Of a stretch of 43,264 bases of DNA, positions 8,502 through 34,740 are shown piece after piece; position 1 is the stretch's first letter; each line of letters begins with the position of its first letter. The DNA lies in the IMG/VR virus record IMGVR_UViG_3300025736_000059, positions 1 through 43,264 of that record; one strand, 5' to 3'. The notes below the pieces were generated by a model. It saw nothing but the letters and a program-made list of their open reading frames with translations. It did no database searches and was not told the origin of the DNA. The DNA is from a virus. The position numbers were made by a program, and so were the translations under genes.

Positions 8502-10814
8502 TTAACTAAGAACTATAATAGATATTATTACGTCACCAGCAAGATCTGCTCCACCATTATTTTGAGTTTTTATCTCAACTGAGCCGGCAGCAGGCTTAAC
8601 CTGCTCAAGAGTCATGCGAGCATCTGCTGCACCCGTATTGCCGACCGTAACAATAAGACCTGAAGTTGCAGAGATTTCACTATTAGTAATAGTGAATGTC
8701 TCTTGAGCAGTTGTTGCAGTTGTTTGTCCAGTTAATGTTGCAACAGTTACTTTACCATTAAGGGTTATTGAATTTGCAGCTGCAGTTCCTGTGGCAGGTT
8801 GTATGTCTACGTTTCCACCAGCAACTAAAACGATTCCGCCAGTCCCAGAACCAAGTGACATAGCCGAAACACCGTTCGTTGATCCAACGTTTGTTGTATG
8901 ATCTGTAGGGTTAGCACCGAAAGTACAGTCCCCAGTACCTCCGTAGATATTTACGCTAGTTGCTCCAGAGTCGTTTCCTATTACTAGGTCTCTCTGAGCT
9001 GCACCGTCTCCGATATTTATACCAAAAGCATTTGCACCCGATCCGATTGAGATAGCTCCGCCTGTAGAATCTATAGTTGCTGCACCAACAGCATTTACAT
9101 CCCATATTCCACCAGCTGTTTGAACAAAGTTTCCGGTTCCTGCTTGTAAGGTCAATGCAGAAGCGTCGGTTGTGCCCCCAACCCTAACGGTATGAGCTCT
9201 AGCATTAACACCAATGTCAATATTTCCAGTACCAGAATTTACAACTACAGAGGTTGCGTCTGTAGCATTACCCAAGGTGATAATTCTTTGAGCACCACCC
9301 GTTCCGATAGCGATATTTTGAGCATCTGCTCCAGCGCCAATAGAAAGAGCTCCACCGGTTGAATCTATTGTTACTGCACCAACAGCATTTACATCCCATA
9401 TTCCGCCTACAGTTTGTGTATAAGCGCCCGTGCCTGTTTGCAAGATCAATGCTGAAGTTGTGTTGGTTGAACCTACAGTTGTTGTATGTGCGTTTGTAGA
9501 AGCTCCAACTGAGACTCCAGCAGTACCGCAATCTAGAATTACTGAACTTGCTGCGGTTGTGTTCCCAACCGTGACAACTCTCTGAGCCCCGCCCGTTCCG
9601 ATATTTATATTTTGGGCAATAGCATCATTTCCGATACCTATAATTCCACCTGAAGAGTTAAGCTCAAGAACTCCAATAGCATCAAGAGTCATATCATCAG
9701 TAGAAGTAGCTATGAGATTTCCTGTTCCTGAAGCCAAAGTAAGGCTGGATGCACCTGTGGCGTTTCCTAAACTTACATCTTTAGCTACTGCGTCTACACC
9801 AAGTAGGATAGCAGCTGTGCCTGTTTGAAGAGTAAATGCTCCGTTAGCACCATCTACTGTCATACCACCAGTACCGAAATCAATATCTATTCCACCAGCA
9901 GCATCTGCTGAATTAAGACTTATTGAATCAGCTGCGGCTAAACCAGATCCGATAGCAACACCACCAACATCAGAATGCATATATACTGAATCATTAGCGG
10001 TACCTTGATCAGCATGAATATGGATAGCTTCGTTAACACCAGCATTAGCATGTAAATAAATAGCGTTAGCAGCATTATCATCAGAAACTATAGTACAAGT
10101 ACCAGCAAGCATGTCAAGATCGTTAGTAGCTGTTATTGATGCTACAGAAACAATGTCATCTGCAAGTCTAATACGTACTGTATTTAAAGTTGCACCATCT
10201 GTTGTTATATTTACGTCATAACCTTCAAAAGTAGTTAAACCAGCAACTGTAGGATCTACCGGCCCACCAGCATCAGTTCCAAATGTTGTACCTGTAGCAC
10301 CTGGATTAGTAATAGTTATTGTTCCAGCAGCTTCTGTAATAGTTATACCACCGCCAGCTGTTAAGGTACTCCAGGCTGGAGCTAATCCAGTTGATCCAAT
10401 TAAAACTTGTCCGTCTGTGCCCGCTGAAGTAGCTAATAGTCCAGCTGCACTGTTAACTACAACACCAGCTGTAACATATGCAGCAACGTTAATAGCACCT
10501 GTGGTCAATGTAACATCACCAGCTGCTAGTATTACATCACCAGCTGTGACATTAATGTCACCAGGATTAACAGTAATAGCATCAAAGTTTCCAGAACCAC
10601 CACCACAATTGGTCCAATTAGAAGAACTTGCAACAATGCTTGTCAAAATATAAACATTGTCAGTGCCAGTTACATCTTTATAACACCAAACTGTACCTAT
10701 TTCAGCTCTATCATTAACAGTAGGTACTCTAGTAGCAACAATAGGTTCATTAAATACATCAACCCTAGGATTACCTATACCATAGGCACTCTGGTTTTTC
10801 TTATATACAGCCAT
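8502..10814 (-). CDS. tail fibre protein, repetitive
   Basis: A 770-residue fibre. The N-terminus (MAVYKKNQSAYGIGNPRVDVFNEPIVATRVPTVND..EIGTVW) is an anchoring type shared in style with the 2117-residue fibre (PTTQDFREYTIGTIW). The shaft is built from repeats such as GGAQR..T.GN.T.A.S...., GTG...IG......T..VG.T....S.L and GGIWDVNAVGA.TIDSTGGA.SIG. The C-terminus is a beta-rich tip. It begins the fibre cluster, downstream of the ejection genes and across the plus-strand island. Function inferred as adsorption; the receptor is unknown. Confidence 0.85.
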   Translation of the reverse strand: MAVYKKNQSAYGIGNPRVDVFNEPIVATRVPTVNDRAEIGTVWCYKDVTGTDNVYILTSIVASSSNWTNCGGGSGNFDAITVNPGDINVTAGDVILAAGDVTLTTGAINVAAYVTAGVVVNSAAGLLATSAGTDGQVLIGSTGLAPAWSTLTAGGGITITEAAGTITITNPGATGTTFGTDAGGPVDPTVAGLTTFEGYDVNITTDGATLNTVRIRLADDIVSVASITATNDLDMLAGTCTIVSDDNAANAIYLHANAGVNEAIHIHADQGTANDSVYMHSDVGGVAIGSGLAAADSISLNSADAAGGIDIDFGTGGMTVDGANGAFTLQTGTAAILLGVDAVAKDVSLGNATGASSLTLASGTGNLIATSTDDMTLDAIGVLELNSSGGIIGIGNDAIAQNINIGTGGAQRVVTVGNTTAASSVILDCGTAGVSVGASTNAHTTTVGSTNTTSALILQTGTGAYTQTVGGIWDVNAVGAVTIDSTGGALSIGAGADAQNIAIGTGGAQRIITLGNATDATSVVVNSGTGNIDIGVNARAHTVRVGGTTDASALTLQAGTGNFVQTAGGIWDVNAVGAATIDSTGGAISIGSGANAFGINIGDGAAQRDLVIGNDSGATSVNIYGGTGDCTFGANPTDHTTNVGSTNGVSAMSLGSGTGGIVLVAGGNVDIQPATGTAAANSITLNGKVTVATLTGQTTATTAQETFTITNSEISATSGLIVTVGNTGAADARMTLEQVKPAAGSVEIKTQNNGGADLAGDVIISIIVLS

Positions 10815-10897
10815 CTCTGACTCCTTTTAATTAAATAAAAAAACTTATCAACTTAAGTTCACATTATTTCAGTTTTTTATGCAATGTTTAATAAAAC

Positions 10898-10925
10898 TTG
10901 ATATATAAATATATAAATATATACT
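10898..10925 (+). promoter_or_regulatory. candidate sigma70-type promoter for the plus-strand island
   Basis: TTGATA (10898-10903), a 16-bp A/T spacer and TATACT (10920-10925). The expected start near 10932 leaves a very short leader with AGGAAGG before the ATG at 10944. It would drive four plus-strand genes in an otherwise minus-strand late block. Confidence 0.45.
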
Positions 10926-10943
10926 TAAAGAGGAAGGTAAATA

Positions 10944-11102
10944 ATGAAGAAAAATGATAAGACTAAGTTGTTATTGATAGAGGTTCCGATAGAGTTCCAT
11001 GCTGAGATAAAAGCTATGGCTGCCCTTAGGAATATAAGCATAAAGAAGTTGATCATGAGGCTGCTTTATACTGAGTTAAAGCGTTTAGAAGAATATAAAT
11101 AG
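10944..11102 (+). CDS. ribbon-helix-helix (Arc/MetJ-like) DNA-binding protein
   Basis: A 52-residue protein: a basic N-terminus, one beta-strand (LLLIEVPIEFH) and two helices (AEIKAMAALRNIS and IKKLIMRLLYTELKR). This matches the Arc/MetJ fold: a strand of alternating residues for groove contact, then helix-turn-helix for dimerisation. AGGAAGG lies upstream. It is first in the plus-strand island and probably autoregulates it or acts on late genes. The end RLEEYK is echoed at the ends of downstream units (see the repeat at 11082-11101). Family assignment is by fold pattern only. Confidence 0.65.
   Translation: MKKNDKTKLLLIEVPIEFHAEIKAMAALRNISIKKLIMRLLYTELKRLEEYK
11082..11101 (+). repeat. 20-bp direct repeat at gene ends (also 11414-11433 and 11808-11826)
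   Basis: CGTTTAGAAGAATATAAATA occurs here and, exactly, at 11414-11433. The form at 11808-11826 matches 18 of 19 bases. Copies one and three encode the final codons of genes (RLEEYK, SLKEYK). Copy two lies just past a stop and would encode RLEEYK in the old frame. This suggests serial duplication in the island. Confidence 0.8.
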
Positions 11103-11112
11103 TTAGGAAATT

Positions 11113-11406
11113 ATGATAACAAGAACAGAATTTGATGAATTAGTATCGGATTGGGCTGTATTCATGGAAGATACTAACGCAGAAATGGAACTTATTAAAC
11201 AAGCAGTAAATAGTTACACACGTGAAATCACGACTACAATACGAAAAAGACTAAATGAATTAGAAAATAAAGTTGAAACTCTTTCTAAGTCTATTATAAA
11301 AATTAAAAAAAAATCCAAATCTTTTAAGTCAAATAAAGATTTGGTCAAAACAATGCCAGAGATCTCTAAAGAGTTAAAAGACATTATCGAGAATGGGAAG
11401 ATATGA
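11113..11406 (+). CDS. coiled-coil protein, paralogue of the alpha-CTD-like gene without the CTD
   Basis: A 97-residue, mostly helical protein. The N-terminus (M.T..EF..L) and the segment IRKRLNELENKVE align with MVTKEEFKFLL and IRIRLNELENKDK of the 124-residue downstream protein. A lysine-rich linker and a short helix (EISKELKDIIENGKI) replace the alpha-CTD-like domain. Bases 11402-11433 past its stop still encode RVRLEEYK in another frame, hinting at a frameshifted older C-terminus. It could form hetero-oligomers with its paralogue. Function unknown. Confidence 0.6.
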   Translation: MITRTEFDELVSDWAVFMEDTNAEMELIKQAVNSYTREITTTIRKRLNELENKVETLSKSIIKIKKKSKSFKSNKDLVKTMPEISKELKDIIENGKI

Positions 11407-11452
11407 TAGAGTACGTTTAGAAGAATATAAATAAAGTTGGGGGGGGGATATT

Positions 11453-11827
11453 ATGGTAACAAAAGAAGAATTTAAATTTTTATTAAAGATGCTTAAAGAT
11501 TTCGCAGAAAACATACAAAAAGATATTGATGAAATACGAATAAGACTAAATGAATTAGAAAATAAAGATAAAATATCTTCTAATAAAAAATGTATATTTA
11601 CGCAAGAAAAAAAGTTAGAGATTTTACGTAAAAACAATATAGATGATTTAAATCTTCCTGTAATAACTAAAAGGTGTTTAAAAACTGCACAAATAGAACA
11701 AATATCAGATCTAGTTAGTCTAACAAGGGAAGACTTATTAAAAATTAAATATTTTGGTAATAAGTCTCTTTGGATAGTCATGAATATCCTTAATTCTCTT
11801 GGTTTAAGTTTAAAAGAATATAAATAG
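11453..11827 (+). CDS. coiled coil fused to RNA polymerase alpha C-terminal-domain-like fold
   Basis: A 124-residue protein. Residues 4-40 form a coiled coil (EIRIRLNELENK). Residues 66-121 resemble the alpha-subunit CTD of bacterial RNA polymerase: LPVITKRCLKTAQIEQISDLV..TREDLLKI.YFGNKSL....N.L.SLGLSL, against the E. coli pattern LTVRSANCLK...I..I.DLV..TE.ELLK..N.GKKSL....L...GLSL. The hairpin GNKSL is kept (G296, K298 and S299 equivalents). The R265 and N268 equivalents are Ile and Arg, so UP-element reading would differ. It may act on host transcription by mimicking or displacing alpha-CTD (inference). The ribosome site is a nine-G run five bases before ATG. Confidence 0.65.
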   Translation: MVTKEEFKFLLKMLKDFAENIQKDIDEIRIRLNELENKDKISSNKKCIFTQEKKLEILRKNNIDDLNLPVITKRCLKTAQIEQISDLVSLTREDLLKIKYFGNKSLWIVMNILNSLGLSLKEYK

Positions 11828-11840
11828 CTGGGGGGCTACT

Positions 11841-11981
11841 ATGAAAGAAAAATCAACTGAAACATTGGGAACATTAATCTTATTAATTTTAATAATCATA
11901 TTGTTCCCTCAGATACTTATTATATTACTAGCTATTGCGATACCAATAAGCTTCTTACAATTTTACCTTAAAGCAGATTAA
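11841..11981 (+). CDS. tiny membrane protein
   Basis: A 46-residue protein of almost continuous hydrophobic residues after MKEKSTETLG (TLILLILIIILFPQILIILL, then AIAIPISFLQFYL), a transmembrane hairpin or one long helix. A run of six G lies five bases before ATG. It is last in the plus-strand island, and its TAA overlaps the convergent late gene's stop in the tetramer TTAA. It could be a small holin-like, inhibitor or exclusion protein; nothing distinguishes these. Confidence 0.5.
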   Translation: MKEKSTETLGTLILLILIIILFPQILIILLAIAIPISFLQFYLKAD

Positions 11982-21106: not shown

Positions 21107-21541
21107 TTACTTCTTACTTGAGATAATCCTAGAAGCTAATAATGTTGCTAAAAATGGAATACCATAATTAATTATCTTATCAATGAATCCATTAAATGTA
21201 ATAAACAAATACTTCTTAGGATTAGTACCTATCGCTTCTAAATTAGCAGACGACCTACCATAAGCTTCCTGGATCTTATAACACTCCTTAGCATAACCAA
21301 CTAAGTTAACACCCTTTTCAATAGTTATCCTTGCTGGACTGTAATTATAATACTTACAATAAAATATTATTAATGGAGATGCTAGTACAAGAGCCTTTAT
21401 TGCACCCTTAGTAGTCAAGATATCATTTAACACATTATTCATGCCCTTAACAACCCTGATTATTCTGCTTTTAGGCTCAACCTTGTTATTAGAAAAACAA
21501 GTACTAAAACATAATAATAAAATAAAAACGATCTTTTTCAT
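21107..21541 (-). CDS. membrane/secreted accessory protein
   Basis: A 144-residue protein with an N-terminal signal-like helix (MKKIVFILLLCFSTCFS), hydrophobic segments at about 45-63 (ALVLASPLIIFYCKYY) and near the C-terminus (YGIPFLATLLASRII), and a basic end SSKK. It is transcribed with the late strand but separated from scaffold and capsid by the island. It diverges from the 233-residue plus-strand gene. Possibly a superinfection-exclusion or host-envelope modifier (inference); no family recognised. Confidence 0.55.
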   Translation of the reverse strand: MKKIVFILLLCFSTCFSNNKVEPKSRIIRVVKGMNNVLNDILTTKGAIKALVLASPLIIFYCKYYNYSPARITIEKGVNLVGYAKECYKIQEAYGRSSANLEAIGTNPKKYLFITFNGFIDKIINYGIPFLATLLASRIISSKK

Positions 21542-29601: not shown

Positions 29602-30078
29602 ATGAGTGGAAAATATACACAAGAACCCAAAATAGAGTTCTATAAAGCATTCTTAAAGTCTCAGTCAGAGTTTCCAGATATGCCTAAAAGTAAAAGTGGC
29701 GCTAGGGGTTTTAAGTATTCTAACCTTGGAGAAATATTTAAGTTAGTTCTTCCAATACTCCATAAAAATGGAATATGCGTAGAGCAAGATATAACTTCTA
29801 ACGAGCAGGGCCAGCATCTAGTTTGTACAAGACTCACACATGCAGCAAGTGGTGAATGTTCAGAGTCTTTTACCTTGATACCCTACAGGGAAGAAGATTT
29901 TAAGAGTAAGATCAGCTTCCAAGTATATGGTACTGGTTATACATACTTTAAAAGATATGCCCTAGCTTCTAAGCTGTGTCTATACACCGATGAAGACACA
30001 GATGGCTACGTTACAGAGAATAATTCTTCTAGAGGTTATGTTAAAAAAGAGTTCACACCTAGTGAAAACTTCTTTTAA
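29602..30078 (+). CDS. erf: ERF-family single-strand annealing protein, copy 1
   Basis: A 158-residue protein with the ERF core: FKYSNLGEIFKLVLPILHKNG, then TRLTHAASGECSESFTLIPY, then QVYGTGYTYFKRYALASKLCLYTDEDTDGY. ERF proteins anneal complementary single strands with SSB, promoting recombination and circularisation of phage DNA. It starts two bases after ssb. A short C-terminal tail ends in ENFF. Its stop overlaps the convergent HTH gene by four bases. Confidence 0.8.
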   Translation: MSGKYTQEPKIEFYKAFLKSQSEFPDMPKSKSGARGFKYSNLGEIFKLVLPILHKNGICVEQDITSNEQGQHLVCTRLTHAASGECSESFTLIPYREEDFKSKISFQVYGTGYTYFKRYALASKLCLYTDEDTDGYVTENNSSRGYVKKEFTPSENFF

Positions 30079-30493: not shown

Positions 30494-31216
30494 ATGCTAA
30501 ACGTTAGCACAAGCGCTATAGAAGAGAAGTTAGATTTAATCTTAAATAAGCTAGACGAAGAAATAGAAGAGTCTTATGAGTCTAAGGAGACTGCAAAGTT
30601 AAATGAGGCAATAGCACTAGCATCATTAGAATTTCCTATAATCAAAGTAAACAGACAAAACCCATACTTGGCATCGGGCTACTCAGACCTACATGAAATA
30701 ATGGTACGCATAAGACCTATCCTTGGTAAAAACGGTCTACATGTCTCCCAAAGAATAAAACTTAAAGACTCGGTCACAATACTTTGTTCTAGAATATGGC
30801 ACTCATCTGGCCAATGGATAGAATCTAGAGTTCTTATTACCCCAAGCAAGAATACAATAGAGTCTTATGGTTCAAATTTAAACTCTATGAAACGTTTTGA
30901 GATTATGGATATGTTGGGCCTCACAGTTTCAGGGGATCCGTTTGATGACGATGGTGAAGATGATATGCAAATAGCTAATGAGCTAGCTGAAGGAGGCTCT
31001 CAACTCAAAGCCTTGTATAACAAAAAAGAAGAATCTTTTGCCGTTATAAATAATAATGAGTACGCAGAGCTCATGAAAGAGCTAGATGATCAAGAAGACC
31101 TGGCTGAAGATATCTTGGATAAACTTCATATAAGATCACTTAGAGAACTACCTGCCACTAGGTACGCACCAACCATGAATAGAATAAGAGCCATAAAGAA
31201 AAAAAGAAGAGGTTGA
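30494..31216 (+). CDS. ERF-family single-strand annealing protein, copy 2
   Basis: A 240-residue protein, divergent from copy 1 but with the same core: YLASGYSDLHEIMVRIRPILGKNGL, ILCSRIWHSSGQWIESRVLI, IESYGSNLNSMKRFEIMDMLGLTVSGDPFDDDGEDD. The usual TYxKRY is NSMKRF here. The longer acidic C-terminal region (YAELMKELDDQEDLAEDILDKLHIRSLRELPATRY) is absent from copy 1 and ends in KKKRRG. Likely a second annealase or a specialised partner. The ribosome site lies in a hairpin arm. Confidence 0.7.
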   Translation: MLNVSTSAIEEKLDLILNKLDEEIEESYESKETAKLNEAIALASLEFPIIKVNRQNPYLASGYSDLHEIMVRIRPILGKNGLHVSQRIKLKDSVTILCSRIWHSSGQWIESRVLITPSKNTIESYGSNLNSMKRFEIMDMLGLTVSGDPFDDDGEDDMQIANELAEGGSQLKALYNKKEESFAVINNNEYAELMKELDDQEDLAEDILDKLHIRSLRELPATRYAPTMNRIRAIKKKRRG

Positions 31217-31239
31217 AATTACGTAAACTGGCAACCCCC

Positions 31240-31270
31240 GGGTTGGTGACCCTACGGGTTGGTGACCCTA
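31240..31270 (-). repeat. tandem duplication of the tRNA-Glu 3' end
   Basis: GGGTTGGTGACCCTA occurs at 31240-31254 and 31256-31270, period sixteen. On the minus strand each reads TAGGGTCACCAACCC: acceptor 3' strand, discriminator, CCA and four further bases. Only the inner copy belongs to the folded tRNA. It may be a recombination or attachment scar, or replication slippage. Confidence 0.75.
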
Positions 31271-31335
31271 ATCGGACTCGAACCAATGTCTAAGGAATGA
31301 AAGTCCTTAATTCTAACCAACTAAACTATAGGGTC
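31260..31335 (-). tRNA. tRNA-Glu (anticodon UUC), CCA encoded
   Basis: 76 nt including CCA. The acceptor GACCCTA pairs with TAGGGTC. D arm GTTT...GAAT; anticodon stem AAGGA/TCCTT around loop CTTTCAT (UUC). T arm ATTGG/CCGAT with loop TTCGAGT. Discriminator A, then CCA. Typical bacterial tRNA-Glu features. It follows the replication-initiator-like gene by twelve bases on the same strand and may be processed from its transcript. It would help read GAA/GAG codons. Confidence 0.93.
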
Positions 31336-31347
31336 ATTAGTTTATTC

Positions 31348-32757
31348 TTAGTCTGAACTATCAAATAAACCAGCACGACTACAATAGTCCATATAAGCCT
31401 TGTCACCTATTAACGCCTTAAATTTCTCGCCTACTGCAAGATCTGACGTTGACATGTCCTTACTGCAGATAGGTGCTTCTTGTGGCTCACGAGTCTTGTA
31501 TGGGTACTTATCGCGGTACTTATCAGCATCAATCTCTTCTGAAAATATATGTCTATGATAAAATCCATTTTCTTTTAATAATTTCTTTATTTCTGCTGCT
31601 TCCATATTGCTTCTAAACTTTAATATATCAAAAATCCATTTAAAACTATTCTTACACTCTGGAAACGACTTTAACTTGTTCTTAACAAACTGAATATCAT
31701 CTGCAGAGAATAGTTTTATAATACCAATTTCCATTTTAGTCAACTGGAAAGCACTTTTCGGCGGAACCCATACGAGATACTCCTTGCTAGTAGAGATAAG
31801 ATATTCTTCGTAAGCTAATACTGTGCCATAGTACTTACGTCCAGTGAAATATCTAGATGCAATAGGTTTATCAAGCTCAGATAAATACTTGAATTTATAC
31901 TCAGTACAGAACCGTAATTCTATTTCTTCCCTTTTTTGGGTCATTCTTGGTCTCCTCCCTATAAAGTCAACATACTCACCAAGTGGAGTTCGATCTTCAT
32001 AATATACTATGTCACTTGGATGCTCTGGAGGGAGTACTGACGCAATACTGGTATGGTCAAAAACATATTTACTGTGGGATATAGCCTCTTCTTCGTAAAT
32101 CTTAGCTATTTCATAACTATTAACATATTTCGTTGGAACATATACCCCGCCTTTCTTATAATGGTTATTCTTTGAATAACTATTATTAAGAAATAATAAG
32201 CTTAATACGCAAAATGTTTGGAAATATCGATGTAGAGCAGGTATTGACTTGAAAATCTTCTGCATGTTCTTCCTGGAACCGTTATCATTCTTGGAGATAA
32301 ATACCATATCTTCCTTGAACTTATCTCCATAACCGTAAGCGCAAGTTCTCTTTTCATAGATATTGTTTTTTATATCTACATTTTTCCACCCACGCTGTGT
32401 CTTGTTAATTATGCCCTTACTATCTAACTCACCGAGAAGACCATTAACCGTCCTTAAAGAACAACCTAGTTCGCAAGCTAGCCATGTTTGTGATGGAATA
32501 ACAGTATCAAAATCTATAAGCAAACTTACTAGCTTATGAATCAACCCTCTCTTGTTATAAACCATACTCGTGTAAAAGTATGTCATAGCCGTAGCCTCAT
32601 TAGCTCTTGCTATAACTCTCTTGGATTCTGCTATAAATTCATTGGCTTTCTGCTTTTTCACTAAAGCACCAATAGGGAGCTTAGGTTTATACCGGACTTT
32701 AGGGGTTTTATTTGATTTTACTTGACTTTGGCGGAGATAAGGTTTAAGGTGAGTCAT
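31348..32757 (-). CDS. replication-initiator-like winged-helix protein
   Basis: A 469-residue protein from ATG 32757, with AAGGAAG seven bases upstream; the frame extends to 32862 only through duplicated sequence. The basic N-terminus (MTHLKPYLRQSQVKSNKTPK) is followed by a helix-turn-helix/winged domain (LIHKLVSLLIDFDTVI, then QTWLACELGCSLRTVNGLLG, ELDSKGIINKTQRGW) as in plasmid or phage initiators and GntR-like folds. The remaining ~330 residues are basic and helical, with no helicase or primase motif that I can find. Position beside repeats and early genes supports a replication role; this is inference. Confidence 0.5.
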   Translation of the reverse strand: MTHLKPYLRQSQVKSNKTPKVRYKPKLPIGALVKKQKANEFIAESKRVIARANEATAMTYFYTSMVYNKRGLIHKLVSLLIDFDTVIPSQTWLACELGCSLRTVNGLLGELDSKGIINKTQRGWKNVDIKNNIYEKRTCAYGYGDKFKEDMVFISKNDNGSRKNMQKIFKSIPALHRYFQTFCVLSLLFLNNSYSKNNHYKKGGVYVPTKYVNSYEIAKIYEEEAISHSKYVFDHTSIASVLPPEHPSDIVYYEDRTPLGEYVDFIGRRPRMTQKREEIELRFCTEYKFKYLSELDKPIASRYFTGRKYYGTVLAYEEYLISTSKEYLVWVPPKSAFQLTKMEIGIIKLFSADDIQFVKNKLKSFPECKNSFKWIFDILKFRSNMEAAEIKKLLKENGFYHRHIFSEEIDADKYRDKYPYKTREPQEAPICSKDMSTSDLAVGEKFKALIGDKAYMDYCSRAGLFDSSD

Positions 32758-32989
32758 ATAAAGCTTCCTTGTAAGTTGTTTTATTTTGTGGTTCATGCTG
32801 AGAACTAAAACCATAAAGAAAATTTTGGTCTTTGTCAAAGCGAAAGCTGGCGCAAAGGCCATTTTTTTCGTTTATACAATATTCTAGACTATATTGACTA
32901 CAATAATCTAAATCGATATTATATTGTATCTTAGGGGTTTTATTTGATTTTACTTGACTTTGGCGGAGATAAGGTTTAAGGTGAGTCAT
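32744..32989 (-). CDS. duplicated initiator N-terminus with 61 unrelated residues (copy B)
   Basis: An 81-residue ORF starting with the same MTHLKPYLRQSQVKSNKTPK as the initiator gene, then IQYNIDLDYCSQYSLEYCIN, NEKNGLCASFRFDKDQNFLYGFS and QHEPQNKTTYKEALYDSP. The end lies in the next copy, so its stop overlaps the real initiator start. It keeps the ribosome site AAGGAAG. It may be translated as a coupled leader peptide or be a by-product of duplication. Confidence 0.35.
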   Translation of the reverse strand: MTHLKPYLRQSQVKSNKTPKIQYNIDLDYCSQYSLEYCINEKNGLCASFRFDKDQNFLYGFSSQHEPQNKTTYKEALYDSP

Positions 32990-33221
32990 ATAAAGCTTCC
33001 TTGTAAGTTGTTTTATTTTGTGGTTCATGCTGATAACTAAAACCATAAAGAAAATTTTGGTCTTTGTCAAAGCGAAAGCTGGCGCAAAGGCCATTTTTTT
33101 CGTTTATACAATATTCTAGACTATATTGACTACAATAATCTAAATCGATATTATATTGTATCTTAGGGGTTTTATTTGATTTTACTTGACTTTGGCGGAG
33201 ATAAGGTTTAAGGTGAGTCAT
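32976..33221 (-). CDS. duplicated initiator N-terminus with 61 unrelated residues (copy C)
   Basis: 81 residues, the same as copy B apart from YQHEP against SQHEP. Its stop overlaps the copy B start by fourteen bases, giving a chain of three overlapping starts: copy C, copy B, initiator. Upstream lies a bidirectional terminator-like hairpin. Product or relic cannot be told from sequence. Confidence 0.35.
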   Translation of the reverse strand: MTHLKPYLRQSQVKSNKTPKIQYNIDLDYCSQYSLEYCINEKNGLCASFRFDKDQNFLYGFSYQHEPQNKTTYKEALYDSP

Positions 33222-33282
33222 ATAAAGCTTCCTTGGTAAGTTGTTTTATTAGTGGTTTAGTCTGATAACTAAAACCATAAAG

Positions 33283-33321
33283 AAAATTTGACCCTTTGTC
33301 TATGGCAAGGGGTCAAATTTT
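33283..33321. terminator. bidirectional terminator-like hairpin
   Basis: AAAATTTGACCCTTT (33283-33297) pairs with AAGGGGTCAAATTTT (33307-33321), 15 bp with one G-U and a nine-base loop. A-tract and T-tract lie in the stem on both strands. It separates the minus-strand initiator unit from the plus-strand small genes starting at 33417. Confidence 0.6.
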
Positions 33322-34711: not shown

Positions 34712-34740
34712 TTTAATTTGTTTACAAAGCGGGGGGAGAG

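Follow-up and report, generated by a model that had tools for sequence, protein, structure and literature searches.

The virus record analysed here (IMGVR_UViG_3300025736_000059; 43,264 bp, 37% G+C; hereafter the window) carries a gene of 124 codons whose product contains what we are practically certain is a true RNA polymerase alpha-CTD. The domain (aa 53-112 by Pfam boundaries; 11609..11788, plus strand; the modelled globular part extends to about aa 120) stands behind a predicted N-terminal coiled-coil segment (aa 4-38; 11462..11566, plus strand). What is new is the pattern of change, which, at well-conserved alignment columns, is confined to four positions of the DNA face with the core kept. 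Canonical UP-element-like minor-groove binding has probably been lost, and we give an even chance to the view that the protein is a DNA-blind alpha-CTD that acts on transcription by protein contact, whatever the details of that action.

Identity and structure of the domain

The gene occupies 11453..11827 on the plus strand as an intact open reading frame with an ATG start, exactly as a first, sequence-only reading of this DNA had it. Two contigs agree on it: a second contig of the same phage (IMGVR_UViG_3300022874_000060) holds a copy spanning residues 22-124 and identical over them, and the gene is known as one sequence variant. The Pfam family RNA_pol_A_CTD (PF03118) matches at 51 bits (E 1.2e-13; gathering score 23.8), and the next Pfam family, HHH_5, reaches 14.1 bits. 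Of the NCBIfam rpoA models only the C-terminal ends align, scoring 53 bits where a full-length match needs 353; at 124 aa the protein is not a full alpha subunit. Nor does it belong to PRK07758 (NF005841), a curated family of 95 positions that matches aa 71-121 weakly (15.2 bits, 115 needed). A phmmer search of the PDB returned RNA polymerase alpha chains only (best E 1.4e-10).

An AlphaFold2 model built from a 16-row alignment of viral alpha-CTDs is confident (pLDDT 92.1), with helices at 4-60, 70-78, 84-88, 92-96 and 103-115; with such relatives as its input, it supports the fold but does not count as evidence separate from the sequence match. Prediction from the single sequence gave pLDDT 48.7, with helices at similar places. 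The model has the compact helix-hairpin-helix fold of an alpha-CTD, and its best 50 Foldseek matches in the PDB are all RNA polymerase alpha: examples are 8y5t (rmsd 0.5, TM to target 0.94), 1lb2_E (rmsd 0.7, TM 0.95) and 1z3e (rmsd 0.8). The sequence-only reading, which had proposed the domain, named structure prediction and the search for a better-matching family as the ways in which it might fail, and the proposal came through both: other helix-hairpin-helix families are ruled out as a better fit (HHH_5 14.1 and LigA 15.8 bits, against 51-53 for alpha-CTD models).

The phage domain shares its fold with the alpha-CTD of bacterial RpoA: rmsd is 0.5-0.8 to the best domain structures, and in alignments of 59-72 residues its identity to eight bacterial copies and that of E. 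coli is 33-48%. It differs in that the alpha-NTD is missing, with the coiled coil in its place, and in the four changed residues of the DNA face. The coil had likewise been claimed from sequence, and it stands: the heptad score of aa 4-38 reveals a hydrophobic repeat (shuffle p = 0.011), and the model shows the N-terminus as one helix (4-60), which likely pairs as a coiled coil.

The DNA face and proposed action by protein contact

A critical issue is what the domain has lost and what it has kept. We compared it with 26 other alpha-CTDs, 17 viral and nine bacterial, the latter comprising eight rpoA products from records and the E. coli sequence, which serves as numbering reference. Because similarity guided the choice, the set is thin in distant alpha-CTDs, and the small alpha-CTD proteins of BFVD lie outside it. 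At columns conserved in at least 70% of the comparison, the phage domain differs only at R265I, N268R, N294Y and E302I, and no hydrophobic core position is lost. R265 and N268, which belong to the canonical 265 determinant, are invariant in 26 of 26 comparators, even in those where C269, G296, K298 or S299 vary; the phage domain has I265 and R268 and keeps all four of the latter. Residues D258 and D259 are also kept, position 261 is N (not D or E), and net charge is +2 for the domain and +3 for residues 1-60. The isoleucine, the arginine and the retained GNKS motif (G296, K298, S299) had been read correctly from the sequence; N294Y and E302I are additional, and fall at positions that we take, from alpha-CTD-DNA structures, to lie on the DNA side as well.

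The alpha-CTD of E. coli depends critically on R265 and N268 to bind DNA, and N268 substitutions abolish UP-element activation (PMC11434276). That R265 and N268 are critical, and that all four conserved positions of the DNA face are gone, weakens the earlier suggestion that the protein might occupy UP elements. DNA contact need not have been wholly abandoned: the retained C269, G296, K298 and S299 argue against it, and K267 together with R268 could supply new contacts.

If DNA has been given up, the likeliest mechanism can be outlined as follows. The N-terminal coil would pair to form a dimer presenting two alpha-CTD surfaces, a mimic of the alpha-CTD. Its former DNA face – I265, R268, Y294 and I302, with W301 beside them – would serve as a protein-contact surface. 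The mimic could then bind alpha-CTD partners from host or phage (activators, sigma region 4 or the neighbouring ribbon-helix-helix protein) without being anchored to DNA, and alpha-CTD-dependent transcription would be dampened or redirected during infection. That the protein works as a decoy is, to our minds, possible but doubtful; the full proposition, of a dimeric phage mimic with a selectively rebuilt DNA face, acting free of DNA as a decoy on activators or sigma so as to shut down or redirect host transcription, we put forward tentatively and regard as somewhat improbable in all its parts.

There is precedent for the alpha-CTD as a point of phage attack, since the Alt and ModA proteins of T4 ADP-ribosylate R265 and ModA-modified polymerase is unable to use UP elements or CRP (PMC2988021). 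Were the decoy reading true, the absence of R265 would imply escape from modification of the Alt/ModA type. Rac is reported to cleave the alpha subunit in phiKMV-like phages (PMC7552054). Some other phage alpha-CTDs are fused to helix-turn-helix and sigma-region-4 domains, which makes transcription the likely field of work. An alpha-CTD that is blind to DNA by nature would suggest that phages turn domain mimicry against host activators; it would also allow the DNA-contact and activator-contact roles of the domain to be cleanly told apart.

The unlikely alternative that fares best is a DNA-binding regulator of altered specificity, in which the dimeric coil sets two helix-hairpin-helix units on DNA – on phage promoters, for example – with K267, R268, K298 and S299 replacing R265 and N268. 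The retention of C269, G296, K298 and S299 fits this account, as do the charge added by R268 and K267 and a dimer-like coil suited to two-site binding; and that other phage alpha-CTDs retain R265 and N268 would follow if DNA binding is usual among them. However, R265I and E302I exchange DNA-facing polar residues for hydrophobic ones, N294Y is unusual too, and the effect of N268 substitutions in E. coli is hard to reconcile with it.

We consider it improbable that the protein is instead an adaptor through which phage promoters recruit the host polymerase, with its coil bound to the ribbon-helix-helix protein or, as a heterodimer, to the CTD-less paralogue, and its alpha-CTD bound to sigma region 4 or RNA polymerase. 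This is a special case of action by protein contact, its outcome opposite to that of a decoy. The three genes concerned are consecutive on one strand, a common coil would permit heterodimers, and D258 and D259 are retained on the sigma-facing side of the alpha-CTD. Against it, position 261 lacks the acidic residue and no phage promoters were found in the window: a consensus scan returned 10 sites where 8.0 are expected by chance. One of the 10, TTGATA-16-TATACT (10/12 matches; 10898..10925, plus strand), is promoter-like by that scan only and lies ahead of the gene cluster.

Duplicated coil, junction repeats and an apparently variable site

The terminase, portal and capsid-type genes of the window lie on the minus strand (terminase and portal were named by tblastn against annotated phage genes). 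Between a fibre-like gene (8502-10814, minus strand) and the structural cluster (11978 onward, minus strand) stands a small plus-strand cluster: a 52-aa ribbon-helix-helix-like (RHH) gene (10944..11102), a 97-aa coil gene (11113..11406), the 124-aa gene and a 46-aa hydrophobic, membrane-like open reading frame (11841..11981) with no convincing family match.

The 97-aa protein had been described as a CTD-less paralogue, and the DNA bears this out. The two proteins have the N-terminal coil in common (BLASTP E 7e-4; RLNELENK in both), and their genes share a 51-nt repeat at 86% identity (11238-11288 and 11533-11583) that includes an exact repeat of 26 nt; the longest in 1000 Markov shuffles of the region was 17. 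A second repeat (family D2) marks the gene junctions. Its first copy, TTTAGAAGAATATAAATA, forms the end of the RHH gene (11084..11101, plus strand); it recurs exactly at 11416-11433 and with one mismatch at 11809-11826, and the three sites are the only ones in the window at up to 3 mismatches. The core TTTARAAGAATATAAATA is common to the end of the RHH gene, the stretch after the 97-aa gene and the end of the alpha-CTD gene. Behind the 97-aa frame the repeat encodes, in another frame, ...VRLEEYK-stop, which resembles the ...LEEYK-stop and ...LKEYK-stop ends of its neighbours. The shared 51-nt and 26-nt repeat, the junction repeats and this out-of-frame tail together suggest that the gene was duplicated in tandem and that the first copy then lost its CTD; the alternative is the reverse order, in which the second copy gained one. 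The motif TATAAATA within the junction repeats resembles the T4 late promoter, but the copies overlap gene ends, with the next start codon 11-19 nt further on, and duplicated junctions are a better fit.

The alpha-CTD gene is preceded by a ribosome-site-like run of nine G (11439-11447). The window holds three G runs of at least six (11439-11447, 11830-11835 and 34731-34736), all of them 4-5 nt ahead of a start codon, and a run of six G also precedes the gene after the RHH gene in two relatives (G006 at 10648; G007 at 9773, minus strand). A run of nine is by itself within chance, since 20 of 200 Markov windows reach at least nine; it is the placement before starts that is striking. Such runs are possibly unusual ribosome sites or slippage-prone tracts.

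The sequence-only reading had placed an RHH protein next to the alpha-CTD gene. The first gene of the cluster is RHH-like by weak matches: a PHROG match to an Arc-like repressor has E 0.0012, and the ParD match, at 23.2 bits, falls below the cut-off of 27.3. The gene is conserved in three relatives. Five divergent relatives were compared (G004-G008; TerL 62-84% identical). G006, G007 and G008 each have an RHH homologue (37-44% identity) at the corresponding site, followed by other small genes and not by the alpha-CTD gene, and a profile search detected PF03118 in none of the divergent relatives' records. The absence of the gene is firm for G006 and G007 only, because the records of G004 and G005 stop short of the site and that of G008 ends near it. 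Since relatives carry a different gene there, the position after the RHH gene appears to take variable cargo. In G007 (9318-9761, minus strand) and G006 (10658-11098, plus strand) the occupant encodes a signal-peptide-like protein of 146-147 aa, which by eye resembles that of a 144-aa frame of the window (21107-21541).

A search of 84,980 genomes with TerL led to no host, and a search of genomes with the alpha-CTD protein gave nothing useful. Searching viral contigs with the 97-aa and RHH proteins was equally unproductive; the RHH relatives came from local tblastn and the reading of open reading frames.

These observations bear on a last explanation, that the 3' end of a bacterial rpoA was captured onto a phage coiled coil and has since been subject to drift or decay, which in the CTD-less neighbour has gone one step further, with no selected role for either protein: lineage specificity (firm against G006 and G007), the neighbour without a CTD and the vestigial ...RLEEYK tail out of frame behind it all suit this account, which we nonetheless think very unlikely, because the frame is intact, is preceded by a ribosome-site-like G run and is the same in two contigs, and because drift would not change DNA-face positions only while keeping every conserved position of the core.

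Phage alpha-CTD proteins elsewhere and other features of the window

Phage alpha-CTD proteins are already known as a kind by annotation: BFVD contains many phage proteins of 98-139 aa, several of them named for the domain, and an alpha-CTD reading frame is annotated in Erythrobacter phage vB_EliS-L02 (ORF40; PMC9127768), its function being given by annotation. A search of the open literature found no functional study of phage-encoded alpha-CTD copies. In a survey of 50,697 phage records most matches look like host rpoA, from contaminating or mislabelled records. Likely genuine cases include those of Goe8, Atraxi and two other Microbacterium phages, Zenteno07, Ruegeria phage V16 and MT835636, and IMG/VR adds cases that differ in N-terminus and length, ranging from short proteins of 80-97 aa to combinations of helix-turn-helix, sigma region 4 and alpha-CTD. 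Small phage alpha-CTD proteins are thus scarce in cultured phages yet recurrent. The sequence-only reading had called stand-alone phage alpha-CTDs unusual: this holds for the phage records, where they are few, but not for IMG/VR and BFVD.

Many matches in phage and plasmid records were set aside as probable host rpoA, among them MT835508, a 316-aa RpoA amid ribosomal protein-like frames, and a C. difficile plasmid match located in a ribosomal operon. Also set aside was one in Lactobacillus phage phiAQ113 (E 1), which is an SNF2-type helicase.

Likeness to the genuine cases is of several degrees. Stand-alone proteins in BFVD are similar in size (128-135 aa) and fold, with 25-33% identity to the window protein. 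The proteins of Bacillus phage Goe8, Microbacterium phage Atraxi (gp24), Mycobacterium phage Zenteno07 (gp68), Ruegeria phage V16 and three IMG/VR loci (L062, L045, L057) score above the PF03118 cut-off at lengths of 97-288 aa, but all retain R265 and N268 and their N-termini are unlike the window coil. In a further group, from phages or mobile elements (L041, L035 and MT835636), the alpha-CTD is a module, as it is in the window protein; these differ in being 321-332 aa long, in carrying helix-turn-helix and Sigma70_r4 domains, and in retaining R265 and N268.

Elsewhere in the window, a 232-bp unit is repeated in tandem at 32699-33289 (2.5 copies at 98% identity), through which the start of a 504-aa frame (31348-32862) is repeated in a 116-aa frame (32744-33094); the second contig of this phage starts within the same repeat stretch. 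A tRNA-Glu (ttc) gene (31260-31335, minus strand) overlaps an exact 16-bp tandem duplication (31239-31270) and adjoins two genes for ERF-like single-strand annealing proteins (29602-30078 and 30494-31216), which show 34% resemblance to each other; the second matches PF04404 at 30.6 bits against a cut-off of 25.
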